Assembly: GCA_903875215.1 (NCBI GenBank)
Contig: CAIQVH010000007.1
Coordinates: 1-64,000, forward strand
DNA length: 64,000 nucleotides
Source: an uncultured Anaerolineae bacterium
GTDB taxonomy: Bacteria > Chloroflexota > Anaerolineae > Anaerolineales > Villigracilaceae
Direction of reading: 5' to 3'
In this document: one piece after another, positions 38,697-45,830 of the stretch
How the letters are laid out: every line of letters starts with the position of its first letter
Numbering within the stretch: position 1 is the stretch's first letter
Program-made: the position numbers and the translations under genes
Notes under the pieces: model-generated
Seen by the model: the letters and a program-made list of their open reading frames with translations, nothing else
Told to the model about the DNA's origin: nothing
Database searches by the model: none

Positions 38697-38788
38697 ATCA
38701 AAAGGGAGCCCGGCCGCGGGTAACGCATGGCACGGTTTTTTGTGATAGCATTATTTTGTCTGCCATTCATTTCAACCCACGAGGAACC

Positions 38789-40138
38789 ATGTTTGATTTA
38801 CCTGATGATGAAATTCTCCCCCTTTCGCGTGCGCATGTCTTTTGGACCTGGTCGGCGCAGGCCAGGGTCAACCCGCTGGCGGTAAAGCGGGCGCAGGGCG
38901 TATATTTTTGGGATGTGGACGACCGGCGCTATCTCGATTTCAACTCGATGACCATGTGCGTGAATATCGGGCACGGCAACCCGCGCGTCATCCGCGCCAT
39001 TCAGGAGCAGGCGGCAGAGCTGGCCTATGCCGCGCCCGGAATGGCCACCCGCATCCGCGCGCTGGCTGCGCGCGAGGTGGCCGGAGTGACACCAGGCGGG
39101 CGGCTTTCGAAGGTCCTGTTCACCCTGGGCGGAGCGGATGCCAACGAAAACGCCATCAAGCTGGCGCGTGGCTATACCGGCCGCCACAAGATCCTGGCTC
39201 GCTATCGCTCGTATCACGGCGCTTCGGCGGGAGCCATGGCCGCCACCGGAGATCCTCGCCGCCAGATGTGGGAACCCAACCTGATGACGGGCGTGGTCCA
39301 TTTCCTTGACCCGTACCGTTACCGCTCCACCTTCCACCGCACCACGCCACAGATTTCGGAAGCAGATTTCACGCTGGATTATTTGAATCATCTCGAGGAG
39401 ATCATCCGCTATGAAGGCCCAGAGACGATTGCCGCCATCCTGCTGGAGAGTGTGACCGGAACGAATGGCATCATCATTCCGCCGGAAGGGTATCTGCAAG
39501 GCGTGCGGGCACTGTGTGACCGTTATGGAATCGTGCTGATTGCCGACGAAGTGATGGCCGGGTTTGGCCGTACCGGCAAATGGTTTGCCATTGAGCATTG
39601 GAACGTCATCCCGGATATTATGACGATGGCCAAGGGCCTGACTTCGGCGTACGCGCCACTGGGAGCAGTGGCCATGAAGCCGGAGATTGCGGCGGCATTC
39701 GATGAGCGGGTCTTTGAATCAGGGTTGACGTATACCTCGCACCCGGTTTCGCTGGCGGCGGCGGTAGCCAACATTCAGGTGCTCAGGGAGGATCGAATTG
39801 TGGAAAATGCGGCGGCGCTGGGATCGGTGCTCCACAAGCTGTTGACCGACCTGGGAGAATCGCACCCATCCGTGGGCGAGGTGCGCTCGATCGGTCTGTT
39901 TGGCATTCTGGAGCTGGTCAAAAACCGGGAGACACGCGAGCCGCTGACTCCGTGGAATGGCTCCAGCCCGGAGATGGCCGCTTTGCGCAAATATTGCCTG
40001 GAACATGGCTTGTTTGTGTATACTCACTGGCATACGGTGCTGATCATCCCGCCGCTCATCATCAACGAGGCGCAGCTGCGCGAGGGTTTCGCAGTGCTCG
40101 ACCAGGCGCTGGAACTGACCGACCAGGCAGTAAAGTAA
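38789..40138 (+). CDS. Class III (PLP) aminotransferase
   Basis: About 449 residues. PLP-dependent class III fold: the N-terminal strand WDVDDRRYLDFNSMTMCVNIGHGNPRV, the PLP phosphate site GGADANENAIKLAR, Asp in LIADEVMAGFGRTGKW and the Schiff-base Lys in TMAKGLTSAYAPLGA. It resembles taurine/omega-amino-acid pyruvate transaminases but the substrate cannot be named. ATG 38789 has GAGGAACC 4 nt upstream; an in-frame TTG at 38756 is less likely. A strong 16-bp hairpin terminates it. Confidence 0.88.
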   Translation: MFDLPDDEILPLSRAHVFWTWSAQARVNPLAVKRAQGVYFWDVDDRRYLDFNSMTMCVNIGHGNPRVIRAIQEQAAELAYAAPGMATRIRALAAREVAGVTPGGRLSKVLFTLGGADANENAIKLARGYTGRHKILARYRSYHGASAGAMAATGDPRRQMWEPNLMTGVVHFLDPYRYRSTFHRTTPQISEADFTLDYLNHLEEIIRYEGPETIAAILLESVTGTNGIIIPPEGYLQGVRALCDRYGIVLIADEVMAGFGRTGKWFAIEHWNVIPDIMTMAKGLTSAYAPLGAVAMKPEIAAAFDERVFESGLTYTSHPVSLAAAVANIQVLREDRIVENAAALGSVLHKLLTDLGESHPSVGEVRSIGLFGILELVKNRETREPLTPWNGSSPEMAALRKYCLEHGLFVYTHWHTVLIIPPLIINEAQLREGFAVLDQALELTDQAVK

Positions 40139-40211: not shown

Positions 40212-40673
40212 TTATTTTGCGGCACGGTTTTGGAGGTAACGCACCAGATCGGGCGTGGGGTTTTCATATTCTTCGCCCATCAACGGGGAGGAGATAATAA
40301 AGTCGGCAGTGGCACGGTTCGAGGCGGTGGGAATGTTGTAAAGCACCGCCAGGCGCAGCAGGGCTTTGATATCGGGGTCGTGCGGCTGAGGTTCGAGCGG
40401 ATCCCAGAAAAAGATGAGAAAATCGATTGCGCCTTCGCAGATCTTGGCGCCAATCTGTTGGTCGCCGCCGATTGGGCCGCTTTTGAATTGGGTGATGGGC
40501 AAATCGAGCTCTCTTTCGAGCAGGCTGCCGGTGGTGCCAGTACCATACAGGTGATGACGTGAGAGGGTGATGCGGTTGAAACGCGCCCAATCGAGCAGGT
40601 CTTTTTTCTTGTTGTCATGCGCCACCAGCGCGATTCGTTTTTTTATGCCAATCACAGGGTTGAGTGGATTCAT
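40212..40673 (-). CDS. mgsA: Methylglyoxal synthase
   Basis: 153 residues, the usual length. The phosphate-binding and catalytic parts are visible: ALVAHDNKKKDLL near the N-terminus, GTGTTGSLL, SGPIGGDQQIGA and IFFWDPLEPQPHDPDI with the catalytic Asp, then NIPTASNRATADFIISS. The enzyme converts dihydroxyacetone phosphate to methylglyoxal, a bypass of lower glycolysis under phosphate limitation or sugar stress. AAGGAG precedes the ATG and TATAAT lies 20 nt further up. Confidence 0.95.
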   Translation of the reverse strand: MNPLNPVIGIKKRIALVAHDNKKKDLLDWARFNRITLSRHHLYGTGTTGSLLERELDLPITQFKSGPIGGDQQIGAKICEGAIDFLIFFWDPLEPQPHDPDIKALLRLAVLYNIPTASNRATADFIISSPLMGEEYENPTPDLVRYLQNRAAK

Positions 40674-40693
40674 ACTTGCTCCTTGTCAGCCTG

Positions 40694-40699
40694 ATTATA
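40694..40699 (-). promoter_or_regulatory. -10 box of mgsA
   Basis: TATAAT on the minus strand, 20 nt before the ATG at 40673. Confidence 0.5.
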
Positions 40700-40710
40700 G
40701 TGCGTGAGTG

Positions 40711-40741
40711 AAAAACTCCCCGCAACAGGCGGGGAGTTTTT
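40711..40741 (-). terminator. Terminator of the LysM-protein gene
   Basis: AAAAACTCCCCGC (40711-40723) pairs with GCGGGGAGTTTTT (40729-40741). Seen from the minus strand the stem is followed by TTTTT, seven nt after the LysM gene stop. Confidence 0.85.
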
Positions 40742-40747
40742 GAAAGG

Positions 40748-41905
40748 TCATGGTTTGGCAGTCGCTTCGGGGGCCACACCCTGCCAGGAAAAGACGCGCT
40801 GCAGGGATATTGCTCCGGCGCTGTCCCAGATGGCTTGGCCTTGTTCGTCGGTGCCGCTCTGACGCACGGTACCAATCCACCAGCGGAAGACGTGCGGCAG
40901 CGAATCTTTCGGGCGGAAGGTGACCGGTACGATATACTTGGTGTCCTTGACATACTCAGCCAGTCGCCGGCCTTCACCTTCCGTTACGTCTTCGATGGTG
41001 ACCAGGTAGGCTTCATTCTCGCGCAGGGTACCGATCGAGGCCCATTGCAGGGTGATGTTGTCATTGGCCAGGGTAAACGAGGCGCCATCGGGAGGCAGAA
41101 GCAGGTTGACAGCCGGGTAGGGCGGCGGGATGGTGGCGGTAGGGGTGGGGCCAGGAGTGGGAGCGCGCTCGCACAACGGCACGATCAGGTTCATCCCCAG
41201 GAAGACGGTATCCGTGCTCAGGCTGTTATACGACTTGATCGCCGCGGGCGGAACGTTATAGTTGGCCGCAATGCTCGAGAGCGTATCGTTCTCCTGCACA
41301 GTGATGACAACTTTTTCGCAGGCCTGAAGGGTCGCCTGAGCTGGTTCCAGCGTGGAGGTGGCCTCGGGCAACGGGGTAGGCGTGGGATATGGCACCTTGA
41401 TGATCTGCCCAACCGACAGAATGCACGAGGTGGACAGGTTGTTCGTGATCAGCAGGCTGTTCACCGAAACGCCAAACTGCGCGGCAATCCCCAGGCAGGT
41501 GTCTCCAGAGCCGACGGTGTACTCAAACGGCGGCTGAATCGTGGCAGTGGGAACAGGCGTGTTCGTCGCCGCCACAGTTGGGGTAAAGGTGACGGTCGGC
41601 GTGAGCGTGGTGGTGGCTGTCGGGCCGCTGCTTTGCGCCGCCGGCAGGCTGCCGCCGGTCAGCTTTAAGGCCACCAGCACAAGCACCGCGCCGATGATCA
41701 ACAACAGCGCCAGCAAGCCCAGGGCCGCGGGCAGGCTCAGGGTGACCTCAGGCATGCGAGCCGCCTGGGTGGCAGCCGGCTTTCTCGATTCCACCGCCGG
41801 CCCCAATTCGGTTCCGCAGACCAGGCAGCGCGTTGCATTTTCAGCCAGCCGCGTGCCACAAGTTGGGCATATTTTGGTCGAAGATGTTGGGGTTTCTGGA
41901 CTCAT
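40748..41905 (-). CDS. Membrane-anchored LysM protein with N-terminal zinc ribbon
   Basis: About 385 residues. An N-terminal zinc ribbon (CPTCGTRLAENATRCLVCG) lies on the cytoplasmic side, then a membrane helix (LGLLALLLIIGAVLVLVAL), a Thr/Pro-rich stalk, and two external LysM domains (EYTVGSGDTCLGIAAQFGVS and VITVQENDTLSSIAANYNV) that bind cell-wall glycan. A final globular domain (about 275-370, WASIGTLRENEAYLVTIEDV) has Ig-like strands. It is a cell-wall-binding membrane protein. ATG 41905 is 10 nt after a TATAAT box, giving a very short leader. Confidence 0.85.
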   Translation of the reverse strand: MSPETPTSSTKICPTCGTRLAENATRCLVCGTELGPAVESRKPAATQAARMPEVTLSLPAALGLLALLLIIGAVLVLVALKLTGGSLPAAQSSGPTATTTLTPTVTFTPTVAATNTPVPTATIQPPFEYTVGSGDTCLGIAAQFGVSVNSLLITNNLSTSCILSVGQIIKVPYPTPTPLPEATSTLEPAQATLQACEKVVITVQENDTLSSIAANYNVPPAAIKSYNSLSTDTVFLGMNLIVPLCERAPTPGPTPTATIPPPYPAVNLLLPPDGASFTLANDNITLQWASIGTLRENEAYLVTIEDVTEGEGRRLAEYVKDTKYIVPVTFRPKDSLPHVFRWWIGTVRQSGTDEQGQAIWDSAGAISLQRVFSWQGVAPEATAKP

Positions 41906-41915
41906 ACGGATCAGG

Positions 41916-41951
41916 ATTATACCATGACGGAAAATCACACTTTGATATAAT
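41916..41951. promoter_or_regulatory. Two divergent -10 boxes in a 53-nt intergenic region
   Basis: TATAAT on the minus strand (41921-41916) serves the LysM gene, and TATAAT on the plus strand (41946-41951) lies 7 nt before the dehydrogenase ATG at 41959. The plus transcript is predicted leaderless, and the minus one has a leader of a few nt. Confidence 0.55.
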
Positions 41952-41958
41952 CCCTTTA

Positions 41959-43911
41959 ATGTCTGAAAACTTGACCCTCTACAAAACCATGCTCACCATC
42001 CGCCGCTTTGAAGAACGCGCGCTGGCCGAGTTCTCCACCGGAAAATTATTCGGCACCACACACGCCTACATCGGCCAGGAAGCAAATGCCGCCGGGATCT
42101 TCGCCGCTGCCCATCCCCTCGACCTGGTCTGGAGCAATCATCGCTGCCACGGGCACTTCCTGGCCTATGGCGGCGACCCCTACCGGCTGGCCGCCGAATT
42201 AATGGGCAAAGCCACCGGCCTGGTCGGCGGGCGCGGCGGCAGCCAGCACATCCAATGGCGCAACTTCTACTCCAACGGCATCCAGGGCGGCTTCACACCC
42301 ATCGGCGCAGGCATGGCCCTGGCCGAAAAAATACAAAAAACCGGCCAAATCGCCCTCGTCTTCATCGGCGATGGCACCCTGGGCGAAGGCCTGCTCTACG
42401 AAAGCCTGAACCTCGCCGCCCTCTGGCAGCTGCCCGTGCTCTACATCGTCGAAAACAACCGCTTCGCCCAGACCACGCCCATAGAAAAAGCCGTCGCCGG
42501 CTCCATCCCGGCGCGTTTTCAGGCGTTTGGAATCAAAACCTGGGAAGCCGACAGCAGCGATGTCCTGACCATTCACAACCTCGCCGCCCAGGCAATATCC
42601 CACACCCGCAGCAAACTCCCCGGCGCCTTGATCCTGCACACTCACCGTTTCTCTGCCCACAGCAAAGGTGACGACACCCGCGACCACGCCATGATCGCCA
42701 AAATCCGCGCCGAATTTGACCCGCTCAGCCTGCAAGCCGCGCGCCTCTCCCCCGCCGAACTGGCCCAGGCCGAATCAGAAATCGCCTTCCTGATCGACAG
42801 CGCCTTCACCCGCGCCACACAAGACAGTTTCCCGGTTCTCCAGTTTCCTGGTTCTCCTATTGCGGAATACCCGCCAACCGGCCAATTAGCCAACCACAGC
42901 ACCAGTAAACCCGGCAACCGCACAACGGTTCTTGACCATCTCAACCACGCCTTGCATACCGTTATGGAAACCGACGAACGGGTTTATATCCTCGGGGAAG
43001 ACATCCTCGACCCGTATGGCGGCGCATTCAAAGTCACCCGCGGCCTTTCGACCAAATTCCCGGCGCGGGTGCTGAGCACGCCCATCTCCGAAGCCGCCAT
43101 TCTCGGCATGGCCAACGGCCTGGCCCTGCGCGGCCTGCGCCCCGTAGCAGAAGTCATGTTCGGTGATTTTGTCACCCTCACCGCCGACCAGCTCATCAAC
43201 CACGCCGCCAAATTTCGCTGGATGTACGATGACAACGTCCGCGTACCGCTCGTCCTGCGCGCAGCCATGGGCGGCCGGCGCGGCTACGGCCCCACCCATT
43301 CGCAATCGCTCGAAAAGCTATTCCTCGGCATTCCCGGCCTGAAAGTCGTAGCCCCCAACTGCCTCGGCAGCCCCGCAGAACTTCTGCTGGCCGCCATCGC
43401 CGACGAGGATCCTGTGATGTTTGTCGAGCATAAAATCCTCTATACGCGCCCCCTGCTCGAAAAACAAGCCCTGCCCGACTGGAAGATTGGCCGCCTGGGA
43501 CATCCGTATCCCACCTTTGTGCTTCGTCACGCCGGAGACGAACAGCCGCAGATCACCTTTGCCACCTATGGCTATAATTTTGAACTGGTGTTGGCGGCTG
43601 CCCAGGAACTGCTCTACGAGCATGAGCTATTTTCGGAGATCGTACTCTTCAGCCAACTCAGCCCCTTTGACCTGGCCCCGCTCTACGACTCGCTGCAACG
43701 CACCCGCCGCCTGATCACCGTGGAAGAAGGCACTCTCACCCTCGGCTGGGGCGCAGAAATTGCCGCTCGCGCGGCGGAACAGCTCCCAGCCGTGAAAATT
43801 CAGCGGGTGGCCGCGCTCGATCTGCCCGTCGCCAACTCCAAAGCGCTGGAAGATGCCATCCTGCCCTCTCAAACCTCCATCCTGAACGCCGCGCTGCAGC
43901 TGATCGCATAA
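41959..43911 (+). CDS. Fused E1 alpha-beta subunit of a 2-oxoacid dehydrogenase
   Basis: 650 residues. The alpha half (1-290) has the thiamine diphosphate motif GDGTLGEGLLYESLNLAALWQLPVLYIVENN and the HAYIGQEANAAGIFAA opening. A short Pro/Ser-rich joint leads to the beta half (about 320-650, VLDHLNHALHTVMETDERVYILGEDI...PISEAAILGMANGLALRGLRPVAEVMFGDF). Such enzymes decarboxylate a 2-oxoacid and acylate a lipoyl domain of an E2 partner. A lipoyl-bearing protein is encoded 0.8 kb downstream, but with a hexapeptide acyltransferase domain instead of the usual E2 catalytic core. The substrate could be pyruvate or a branched-chain oxoacid. The -10 box 7 nt upstream suggests leaderless translation. 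Confidence 0.92.
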   Translation: MSENLTLYKTMLTIRRFEERALAEFSTGKLFGTTHAYIGQEANAAGIFAAAHPLDLVWSNHRCHGHFLAYGGDPYRLAAELMGKATGLVGGRGGSQHIQWRNFYSNGIQGGFTPIGAGMALAEKIQKTGQIALVFIGDGTLGEGLLYESLNLAALWQLPVLYIVENNRFAQTTPIEKAVAGSIPARFQAFGIKTWEADSSDVLTIHNLAAQAISHTRSKLPGALILHTHRFSAHSKGDDTRDHAMIAKIRAEFDPLSLQAARLSPAELAQAESEIAFLIDSAFTRATQDSFPVLQFPGSPIAEYPPTGQLANHSTSKPGNRTTVLDHLNHALHTVMETDERVYILGEDILDPYGGAFKVTRGLSTKFPARVLSTPISEAAILGMANGLALRGLRPVAEVMFGDFVTLTADQLINHAAKFRWMYDDNVRVPLVLRAAMGGRRGYGPTHSQSLEKLFLGIPGLKVVAPNCLGSPAELLLAAIADEDPVMFVEHKILYTRPLLEKQALPDWKIGRLGHPYPTFVLRHAGDEQPQITFATYGYNFELVLAAAQELLYEHELFSEIVLFSQLSPFDLAPLYDSLQRTRRLITVEEGTLTLGWGAEIAARAAEQLPAVKIQRVAALDLPVANSKALEDAILPSQTSILNAALQLIA

Positions 43912-43945
43912 AAAAAAGACCCCGGAGCAGCACGCTCCAGGGTCT
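43911..43945. terminator. Bidirectional terminator
   Basis: AGACCCCGGAGC (43917-43928) pairs with GCTCCAGGGTCT (43934-43945) with one mismatch; A-run on the left and the minus-strand T-run serve the dehydrogenase and the convergent DUF4013 gene. Confidence 0.75.
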
Positions 43946-43968
43946 GGACGAATGACTACAGAACAGAA

Positions 43969-44649
43969 TCAGGCTGCAGAAGAACTATCCTGCAATCCTT
44001 TAGCCGCCTGATAGGCCTGGCCCCAGAGATGGGCGTTAATACTCATCGCCAGCGCCTGGGTAAACACAATCCCGATCAGGCAGGCGATCAGGCCCAGGCC
44101 GGCAATAAAGCTGGAAACAAGCCCGCCGAGCAAGACCAGGGCGTAGGGGCCGGGAGCCGCGCGGAGCAGCCCAAAAATTTCGTTAAAACGAAAGCCAGCC
44201 GAAAGATTCCCGCCGCTGGCAGCCAGGTTGCCCAGGGCCGCCGGCACCACCAGACAAATCATGATGCTAAGAATAAAATTGAAACACCCAAAGCAGATGC
44301 TGACCACCGTGACCACGGTCGAAATGACAGCCCCGCCGTTATCGCCGGCAGCACTTGTCAGCAACGGCAAAACCGTATTCAAACAGCCCGAAATCAGGAT
44401 GATGGGCAGGGCATAAACGAACCCCACCAGGAAGGCCTTAAACCCGTTGCTAACAAAATCGCCAAAATTGTCCCAGGCGGGCAGCAGCTCCGCCTCGCGG
44501 TGGATGACCCGGCGGGTGATTTCCAGCGCCCAGCCCAGGAGTGTAATCAGCCCGATCAGCGGGATCAGGCTGACTAGCGCGGCGATCCCGATCTTTTTGA
44601 GCCAGTCTGAATCTTCAAATGCATACGTAAAAGCGCGACCGAATTCCAT
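43969..44649 (-). CDS. DUF4013 multi-pass membrane protein
   Basis: About 226 residues with five or six membrane segments; the phrases IALVSLIPLIGLI, GWALEITRRVIH and LPAWDNFGDFVSNGFKAFLVGFVYALP fit the DUF4013 family. No catalytic motif is seen. ATG 44649 has GGAGGAAACG upstream; a -10 box lies at 44685-44680. The gene sits between the E1 dehydrogenase and lipoyl-acyltransferase genes on the opposite strand, so those two are not one operon. Confidence 0.75.
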   Translation of the reverse strand: MEFGRAFTYAFEDSDWLKKIGIAALVSLIPLIGLITLLGWALEITRRVIHREAELLPAWDNFGDFVSNGFKAFLVGFVYALPIILISGCLNTVLPLLTSAAGDNGGAVISTVVTVVSICFGCFNFILSIMICLVVPAALGNLAASGGNLSAGFRFNEIFGLLRAAPGPYALVLLGGLVSSFIAGLGLIACLIGIVFTQALAMSINAHLWGQAYQAAKGLQDSSSAA

Positions 44650-44679
44650 CGTTTCCTCCAAGAATATGTGATGATATCC

Positions 44680-44685
44680 ATTATA
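44680..44685 (-). promoter_or_regulatory. -10 box of the DUF4013 gene
   Basis: TATAAT on the minus strand, 30 nt upstream of the ATG at 44649. Confidence 0.45.
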
Positions 44686-44735
44686 GAGTAAAGCTCTCCA
44701 AATTTGCAAGACCAAAGTCTCGAAATAGGAAGAAC

Positions 44736-45830
44736 ATGCCACAAACCCTTGTCCTGCTCCCGTTATTGAATGCCAACGAACCCGAAGCCCGCCTGGTGCA
44801 ATTCCACGTAGCCGACGGCCAGCCGGTACAAAAAGGCGATCTGCTCCTGACGATTGAGACCACCAAGGCCGCCAGTGATGTCGAGGCCCCGCAAGCCGGT
44901 TTTGTGCGGCTGGCGGCGCGCGAAGGCGAGACGCTGGCCGTTGGAGCGGTGCTGGCCTACATCACCGCCACGGCAGATGAAACGCTGGAAAGCGCCGCCC
45001 GCCCTCAAGAGTTGGAGCCCGCCTCCCCAGCCCCGACAGATTTGCGCATCACCAAACCGGCGCGAATCCTGGCCGAACAGCTGGGGCTCGACCTGGCCAC
45101 CCTGCCGGTTGACCGGCTGATCACCGAAGCGGTGCTGCGCGAACTGGCCACGGCGCCGCGCCGCATCGACCTCCCCGCCTACGCGGAAACCAGCCTGATC
45201 CTCTACGGCGCGGGCGGGCACGCCAAAGCTGTCCTGGAAATGGCGCGGGCCACTGGCGCCTTTCAGCTGGCCGGCATCGTGGATGACAACCCGACGCTGA
45301 CCGGCGCCTCGGTGCTTGGCGTTCCCGTCTTGGGCACGCGTGAAATCCTGCCCCAGCTAATGGAACATGGCGTCAGGCTGGCGGCCAACGGCGTCGGCGG
45401 TATTATCAATATTGAGATACGCGTGAAATTGTTTGAACTTCTGGCCAGTGTTGGCTTGGCTTTGCCCGTTTTGTGCCACCCGCGCGCCACGGTCGAGCCT
45501 TCGGCGCAGATCGAAGCCGGGGTGCAGGTCTTTGCCAACGCCTACGTCGGCTCAGCGGCAGTTCTGCACGAAAACTGTATGATCAACACCGGCGCCATCG
45601 TCTCACATGACTGTGAAATTGGCCGCTACACCCACATTGCGCCCGGCTGCCTGCTGGCCGGGCACGTCCACGTCGGAGAACGCGCGCTGGTCGGTATGGG
45701 CGTGACGACGATGATCGGCCTGCAAATTGGAAGCGGCGCGCGCATCGGCAACGGCGCTGTGCTGCTGGCGGATGTGCCGGAACGACAAATTGTCCCGGCG
45801 GGCAAGATCTGGCTGGGGCCGGAAAAATAA
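44736..45830 (+). CDS. Lipoyl domain fused to a NeuD/PglD-type hexapeptide acyltransferase
   Basis: 364 residues in three parts. First, a biotinyl/lipoyl domain (about 1-82) with the lipoylation-type lysine Lys44 in LLTIETTKAASDVEAP. Second, a short helical segment (about 100-140, ITKPARILAEQLGLDLATL) that resembles the peripheral subunit-binding domain of E2 proteins. Third, a NeuD/PglD-type sugar acyltransferase (from about 153): Rossmann-like GAGGHAKAVLEMARATG, then a left-handed beta helix (VEPSAQIEAGVQVFANAYV through GAVLLADVPERQIVPAG). The first two parts are E2-like, and the third replaces the usual CoA-acyltransferase core. It may move an acyl group from lipoate to an amino sugar; this is an inference. 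AGGAAG precedes the ATG. Confidence 0.85.
   Translation: MPQTLVLLPLLNANEPEARLVQFHVADGQPVQKGDLLLTIETTKAASDVEAPQAGFVRLAAREGETLAVGAVLAYITATADETLESAARPQELEPASPAPTDLRITKPARILAEQLGLDLATLPVDRLITEAVLRELATAPRRIDLPAYAETSLILYGAGGHAKAVLEMARATGAFQLAGIVDDNPTLTGASVLGVPVLGTREILPQLMEHGVRLAANGVGGIINIEIRVKLFELLASVGLALPVLCHPRATVEPSAQIEAGVQVFANAYVGSAAVLHENCMINTGAIVSHDCEIGRYTHIAPGCLLAGHVHVGERALVGMGVTTMIGLQIGSGARIGNGAVLLADVPERQIVPAGKIWLGPEK

Follow-up and report, generated by a model that had tools for sequence, protein, structure and literature searches.

A protein that joins a lipoyl domain to a sugar N-acyltransferase is encoded in the 64,000-nucleotide stretch of DNA analyzed here (the window), which is taken from contig C7 of a Chloroflexota genome of the Anaerolineae type (3.77 Mb, 98.6% complete). 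The gene for this fusion protein, P0002, begins 0.8 kb downstream of a gene on the same strand for a fused E1 alpha-beta 2-oxoacid dehydrogenase, P0001, and in relatives the two functions recur together, in several of them beside genes for the synthesis of amino sugars. The most probable explanation is that these proteins constitute a dedicated acylation machine, wherein an acyl group would pass from the E1 to the lipoyl arm and from there directly to a nucleotide 4-amino sugar, without the use of coenzyme A (CoA).

Results

The fusion protein combines a lipoyl domain with a PglD-type acyltransferase

P0002 matches the Pfam families Biotin_lipoyl (residues 18–76), PglD_N, and Hexapep (Table 1), and its score exceeds the curated cut-off of the NCBIfam model NeuD_NnaD, which describes NeuD/PglB/VioB sugar acetyltransferases (184.2 versus 160.8 bits). 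In the AlphaFold model of the protein (mean predicted local distance difference test score 92.5), a lipoyl barrel is followed by two helices and a PglD-like body. The top Foldseek match of this model is the GDP-perosamine N-acetyltransferase PerB (root mean square deviation 1.3 over 200 columns), and the front of the protein matches the lipoyl domain 3crk_C of pyruvate dehydrogenase (PDH) (1.3 over 77 columns). The CoA-acyltransferase core of ordinary E2 proteins (2-oxoacid_dh, PF00198) was not found in P0002 or in any other fusion with Pfam and NCBIfam profiles. These results agree with the original prediction for this DNA, which had described a lipoyl domain bearing Lys44 in an ETTK motif, a sugar acyltransferase, and no such core. 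By its domains, P0002 would work like the arm of an E2, yet it is no E2, because the PF00198 core is absent. In fold and predicted active site it is a member of the PglD/NeuD family, although it fails to show the CoA-linked tail of that family.

The residues that this interpretation requires are conserved. Each of the 39 fusions with sequence for this part (34 + 3 + 2) has Lys44 in an ETTK or ETDK motif, and in the alignment the motif P(L/M/I)(L/V/I)N(A/P)NE.E stands in for the usual start of a lipoyl domain. Asp183-Asp184 (45282-45287) align with Asp35/Asp36 of PglD, and the Asp-Asp pair is present in 42 of 42 fusions. Likewise, His291 (45606-45608) aligns with the catalytic His125 of PglD and with His141 of PerB, and a histidine occupies this position in all but one of the same 42 proteins. 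In PglD, Asp35/Asp36 bind uridine and His125 is catalytic (PMC8040287).

The proposal that a subunit-binding-like helix follows the lipoyl domain also appears reasonable, given the two helices of the model. Residues R104, P108, A109, A113, and T130 of this pair are conserved in the alignment of fusions, and the Pfam family E3_binding (PF02817) gives weak matches in 3 of 38 fusion proteins (best E 0.0034) and none in P0002 itself.

Two other identities for the front of the protein were considered and ruled out. Biotin carriers bear an AMKM motif, so a biotinyl domain is not consistent with the ETTK or ETDK motif seen here, and the E2 lipoyl models match best. A truncated ordinary E2 that merely lies beside an acyltransferase is excluded by the single open frame present in more than 30 genomes and by the lack of any PF00198 trace.

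The fusion is linked to its own E1

As predicted, P0001 carries the parts of a fused E1 in a single frame, with Pfam matches to E1_dh (7.7e-50), Transket_pyr (5.5e-32), and Transketolase_C (5.5e-16). The thiamin diphosphate (ThDP) motif GDG137–139...N167 is intact, as are E378 and H447, which we take, by motif, to be the equivalents of Glu59 and His128 of PDH E1beta. With its domains, ThDP motif, and catalytic Glu and His all present, P0001 belongs to the E1 enzymes of alpha2beta2-type 2-oxoacid dehydrogenases. The same catalytic motifs (ThDP GDG...N, Glu, His) are kept in all or all but one of 36–37 fusion-linked E1 sequences.

To tally the co-occurrence of the two proteins, 100 relatives were searched with each of them, which gave 101 genomes in total; an E1 of about 50% identity or more was counted as cognate, and classes were assigned by hand from the two search tables. 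Both proteins are present in 37 genomes, only the fusion in 2, only the cognate E1 in 2, and neither in 60. In both E1-only genomes (G053 and G078) the contig ends at the place where the fusion would be expected, and in one of the fusion-only genomes (G066) a contig edge falls inside the fusion itself. A search of plasmid records for fusions outside the phylum returned 93 matching records, none of which covers 80% of the query.

In the mapped loci, the E1alpha and E1beta genes lie immediately upstream of the fusion and in the same direction in nearly all cases in which the contig extends far enough, and the three usually form a tight E1alpha-E1beta-fusion run. Thus, homologues of the fusion are not consistently far from any E1 gene, which the original prediction had named as grounds for its rejection; an adjacent E1 is nearly universal and is found in two further clades of fusions as well. 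A gene for a DUF4013 protein occupies the interval between E1 and fusion in part of one family (f1) only and is absent from this interval in the mapped loci of other families, in which the gaps between the three coding regions are mostly tens of bases. Because of these tight gaps, the operon looks ancestral and the arrangement in the window derived, with the DUF4013 gene appearing to be a later insertion. The earlier statement that the two genes do not form one operon therefore holds for the window, where the DUF4013 gene lies on the minus strand between them, and does not hold for most relatives that lack this gene.

Genes of an amino-sugar pathway adjoin the system in relatives

The operon found in other families of this order comprises a PglC-like phosphoglycosyltransferase, E1alpha, E1beta, the fusion, and a DegT aminotransferase, in that order. 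Both flanking genes are present in genomes G064, G098, and G077, which thereby show the linkage characteristic of a bacillosamine-type pathway. The transferase alone is linked in G068, G081, G086, G093, G079, and G078, and in G073 an aminotransferase is located about 2 kb downstream. The transferase is a Bac_transf protein (PF02397) whose best solved relative is Campylobacter PglC (8e37, 4.5e-62). The aminotransferase belongs to the family DegT_DnrJ_EryC1, has perosamine synthetase 3bn1 as its best PDB match (1.8e-74), and counts ArnB and WbpE among its best relatives. Judged by these matches, the linked genes represent the PglC and PglE steps that flank PglD in bacillosamine-type pathways. 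Such neighbors make a nucleotide 4-amino sugar the very probable acceptor, in keeping with the amino sugar that had been suggested from the window.

Other steps of the route are encoded elsewhere in the window genome. It contains PglC and PglE orthologues (70% and 66% identity), a member of the PglF-type dehydratase family (376 bits), and the lipoyl synthase gene lipA. An E3 gene, reported as missing by the original prediction, is indeed not seen in the flanks of the system; one is found on contig C18 (570.7 bits versus a cut-off of 408.8).

Bactofilin genes recur beside the acyltransferase or the PglE-like aminotransferase. The window genome has a row of bactofilin, a tRNA-editing/anticodon-domain protein, and an aminotransferase (G000:C30, about 163690-166550; L147 11689-14547), and such neighbors are also seen in G085, G287, G425, G072, G097, and G303. 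This recurrence suggests that the glycan route is connected with functions of the envelope or the cytoskeleton.

Similar fusions are found in two divergent clades

Samples of 400 genomes from the phylum and 396 from the class yielded full-length fusions that diverge from those described so far (clade A). Clade B comprises fusions from G770, G797, and G668, with 28–34% identity. The genes for E1alpha, E1beta, and fusion are adjacent in G770, E1beta lies beside the fusion in G797, and G668 carries an E1 of the same type on another contig. Clade C (G248 and G385) comes from another class, and its lipoyl motif is an ordinary ETDK. The gene order of G248 is PglC-like transferase, fusion, E1alpha, E1beta, and aminotransferase, followed by genes that, judged by eye, resemble chain-length, polymerase, and glycosyltransferase genes. 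This genome consists of only 2 contigs, which makes the locus (L197, G248:C2, 2273-12149, minus strand) well suited as a model; it has the appearance of a polysaccharide-type cluster whose fusion combines the ETDK motif with a GxPA tail.

In a tree of E1beta sequences, the E1 proteins of clades A and B group together (support 100) and those of clade C fall outside. In a tree of the acyltransferase domain, the three clades stand apart, on long branches and with weak deep nodes. Together, the two trees suggest at least two probable origins, or re-assemblies, of the combination of a lipoyl-PglD protein with an E1.

The lipoyl lysine disappears where the E1 is lost

Relatives of the acyltransferase in G030, G072, G097, and G303 cluster together (support 92) within clade A (98) in the acyltransferase-domain tree, and because of this position they most likely descend from the fusion. 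Searches of these four genomes did not find the cognate E1. In three of them (G030, G072, and G097) the lipoyl domain is absent. The fourth, G303, retains a remnant that has ISGT in place of ETTK and no longer includes the helix pair (L201, G303:C5, 9007-10113). Loss of the private E1, as read from these sequences, coincides with loss of the lipoyl lysine, which would be expected if the arm serves that E1. All four genes still adjoin PglC-like, bactofilin, or PglE-like genes, and with these neighbors retained, a role in sugar modification appears to have been kept.

The G303 protein (L201) and the other descendants of the fusion that lost the E1 (L079, L080, and L081) have Val or Ala at position 285 in place of an otherwise invariant Thr, hinting at a switch of acyl donor.

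Organization of the locus

The features of the system are collected in Table 1. The start called for the DUF4013 gene, a GTG codon, overlaps the start of P0002 by 7 bases, and the true start is therefore probably internal. Upstream of the E1, genes for a methylglyoxal synthase and a zinc-ribbon/LysM protein (40212-41938, minus strand) are conserved in most f1 genomes. Farther upstream is a class-III aminotransferase gene (38756-40138, plus strand) that scores above the cut-off of the NCBIfam subfamily PRK06062 and is not conserved with the system.

Table 1. Features of the E1-fusion locus, in window coordinates
Feature	Position	Strand	Evidence or remark
Fused E1 alpha-beta 2-oxoacid dehydrogenase (P0001)	41959..43911	+	single 650-aa frame; E1_dh, Transket_pyr, Transketolase_C
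E1alpha part of P0001	about 41959-42858	+	
E1beta part of P0001	about 42919-43908	+	
DUF4013 gene, outside the system	43969..44742	-	DUF4013 2.2e-26
Fusion P0002 (364 aa): lipoyl domain, subunit-binding-like helices, N-acyltransferase of PglD/PerB type	44736..45830	+	
Lipoyl domain, residues 1-80	44736..44975	+	Biotin_lipoyl 3.5e-10; Foldseek match to a lipoyl domain of PDH
Codon of Lys44 (ETTK motif), predicted to be lipoylated	44865..44867	+	turn between strands 36-41 and 46-50 (model)
Subunit-binding-like helix pair, residues 103-140, R.T.PA..LA...........T	45042..45155	+	helices 107-116 and 131-139 (model)
PglD_N nucleotide-binding domain	45192..45455	+	PglD_N 1.9e-11
Left-handed beta-helix acyltransferase domain	45456..45797	+	Hexapep 3.8e-15
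C-terminal tail AGKIW (AGxxW), replacing GxPA(K/R)	45798..45812	+	

Discussion

A possible route of acyl transfer

In the mechanism that we propose, the E1 would decarboxylate a 2-oxo substrate with ThDP and reductively acylate a lipoyl group on Lys44. The swinging arm would then present the S-acyl group at a beta-helix active site within the same trimer. There, with His291 as the base, a sugar linked to uridine diphosphate (or guanosine diphosphate) would attack the thioester directly through its 4-amino group. The products would be an N-acyl sugar and dihydrolipoate, the latter being reoxidized by the E3 encoded elsewhere, possibly docked on the helix pair. The sugar itself would be supplied by the PglF-type dehydratase and the PglE-like aminotransferase, and its acylated form would be loaded onto a lipid carrier by the PglC-like transferase.

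The C-terminal tail of the acyltransferase bears on whether CoA takes part. In Pcryo_0637 and PglD, the proline of the GxPA motif adopts the cis form when CoA binds (PMC8040287). A GxPA tail is present in 19 of 19 ordinary NeuD/PglD homologues from the same genome set, and in none of the fusions of clade A (0 of 37, with AGxxW in its place) or clade B (0 of 3).

Several observations weigh against direct transfer from a dedicated E1. The GxPA tail is kept in both clade C fusions (2 of 2) and is absent from the four unfused relatives that lack a functional lipoyl arm. For these reasons we do not take the altered tail to prove that CoA use was lost; it would fit a bypass of CoA in clades A and B but does not do so for clade C, and it is suggestive only. 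In the window genome, DUF4013 separates E1 from fusion, and the PglC and PglE orthologues are unlinked, on other contigs. The Fisher p value for co-occurrence, about 1e-22, ignores shared ancestry. Finally, G065 is a true exception among the fusion-only genomes, in that it has no cognate E1 and His291 is replaced by Gln. Its fusion (L071, 17007-18191) is probably decaying or changed in function.

We also weighed mechanisms other than CoA-free delivery of the E1 product. An unlikely one is that the acyl-lipoyl group is first passed to CoA bound in the beta-helix cleft, as an obligatory step before the amino sugar, such that acyl-CoA is channeled within the complex. Such a route would suit a fold family whose members PglD, PerB, and Pcryo_0637 use acetyl-CoA (PMC8040287), as well as the GxPA tail of clade C, whereas the lack of a CoA-acyltransferase core in every fusion and of the cis-turning tail proline in clades A and B argues otherwise. 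Equally doubtful is a variant of direct transfer in which the E1 behaves like a transketolase and a ketose phosphate serves as donor of a C2 unit, the arm then delivering a glycolyl-type group instead of one derived from a 2-oxoacid. A PDH-like E1 and lipoyl proteins are known to load a C2 glycolicacyl unit onto an acyl carrier protein (ACP) in the QncN/QncL system (PMC6335953). However, the NCBIfam model that fits the E1 alpha part of P0001 best is of the pyruvate dehydrogenase type, though its score is below the cut-off (232.1 versus 393.85 bits).

We regard it as more improbable still that the enzyme uses ordinary acetyl-CoA and that its lipoyl and helix domains do no more than anchor it to a 2-oxoacid dehydrogenase complex, close to where acetyl-CoA is made, with Lys44 serving as no carrier in sugar acylation. 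The window genome does encode a separate, ordinary E1-E2 complex (contig C31) whose E2 has PF00198, and the unfused relatives persist without the arm. The gene linked to the fusion, however, represents a private E1 lineage rather than the ordinary one, and Lys44 is invariant, being lost only where that private E1 is lost. That the E1 and the fusion are two unrelated genes in chance proximity, as their separation by DUF4013 and the lack of a single operon in the window might suggest, is ruled out for practical purposes by linkage conserved in tens of genomes, many families, and three fusion clades.

Relation to known systems

The fusion resembles the PglD/PerB/NeuD enzymes, including Campylobacter jejuni PglD, Caulobacter crescentus PerB (4ea7), the acetyltransferase domain of Neisseria gonorrhoeae PglB (4m98), and Pcryo_0637, in its nucleotide-binding domain, beta-helix, active-site His, and Asp-Asp pair, and also in its PglC/PglE-type neighbors, found here in relatives. 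Unlike those enzymes, it has a lipoyl arm of its own, subunit-binding-like helices, and linkage to an E1, and the clade A proteins lack the GxPA tail. With the E2 proteins of PDH, branched-chain ketoacid dehydrogenase, and acetoin dehydrogenase it shares the succession of lipoyl domain, subunit-binding-like domain, and C-terminal acyltransferase together with linked E1alpha and E1beta genes, but a sugar acyltransferase of the unrelated beta-helix fold takes the place of the PF00198 core.

Delivery of an acyl group from a PDH-type E1 by way of a lipoyl protein to an acceptor other than CoA has been described for QncN/QncL/QncM and SclQ1-4 (PMC6335953). In those systems the acceptor is an ACP and an E2-type catalytic domain is kept, and neither a sugar nor a beta-helix acyltransferase is involved. 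Another parallel is WfpG of Flavobacterium psychrophilum, a PglD homologue whose acyl group is predicted to come from a protein carrier, the ACP WfpD (PMC6519341). This carrier is a separate protein fed by fatty-acid-type enzymes, in contrast to a fused lipoyl domain fed by an E1. A paper that also uses the term lipoylation (PMC4875605) is unrelated, because the term there refers to decoration with fatty acids. Keyword searches of a literature collection with few subscription papers turned up neither a lipoyl-PglD system nor any description of a sugar acyltransferase supplied by lipoate.

Implications

Lipoate is known as a carrier of acyl groups to CoA, in E2 proteins, and to ACP in a few antibiotic pathways. 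A lipoate arm that feeds an amino-sugar acyltransferase would add a new class of acceptor. More tentatively, and with somewhat more doubt than conviction, we suggest that the system may represent a new 2-oxoacid dehydrogenase complex in which a sugar N-acyltransferase has, on more than one occasion, taken the place of the CoA-acyltransferase core. In it, a dedicated E1 would transfer a non-acetyl group (for example glycolyl, propionyl, or isobutyryl) by way of lipoate, and without CoA, to a UDP-4-amino sugar to give an undescribed N-acyl amino sugar in the envelope glycans of Chloroflexota. Acyl donors of PglD-type enzymes beyond acetyl-CoA become open to testing with this system, for which the unfused relatives, one of them with a dead lipoyl domain, provide natural controls. 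If the proposal is correct, the E2 core can be exchanged for an unrelated fold, glycan acylation would be coupled to the oxidation of oxoacids and the formation of reduced nicotinamide adenine dinucleotide (NADH), and new N-acyl sugars would be predicted in a mostly uncultured group of bacteria.

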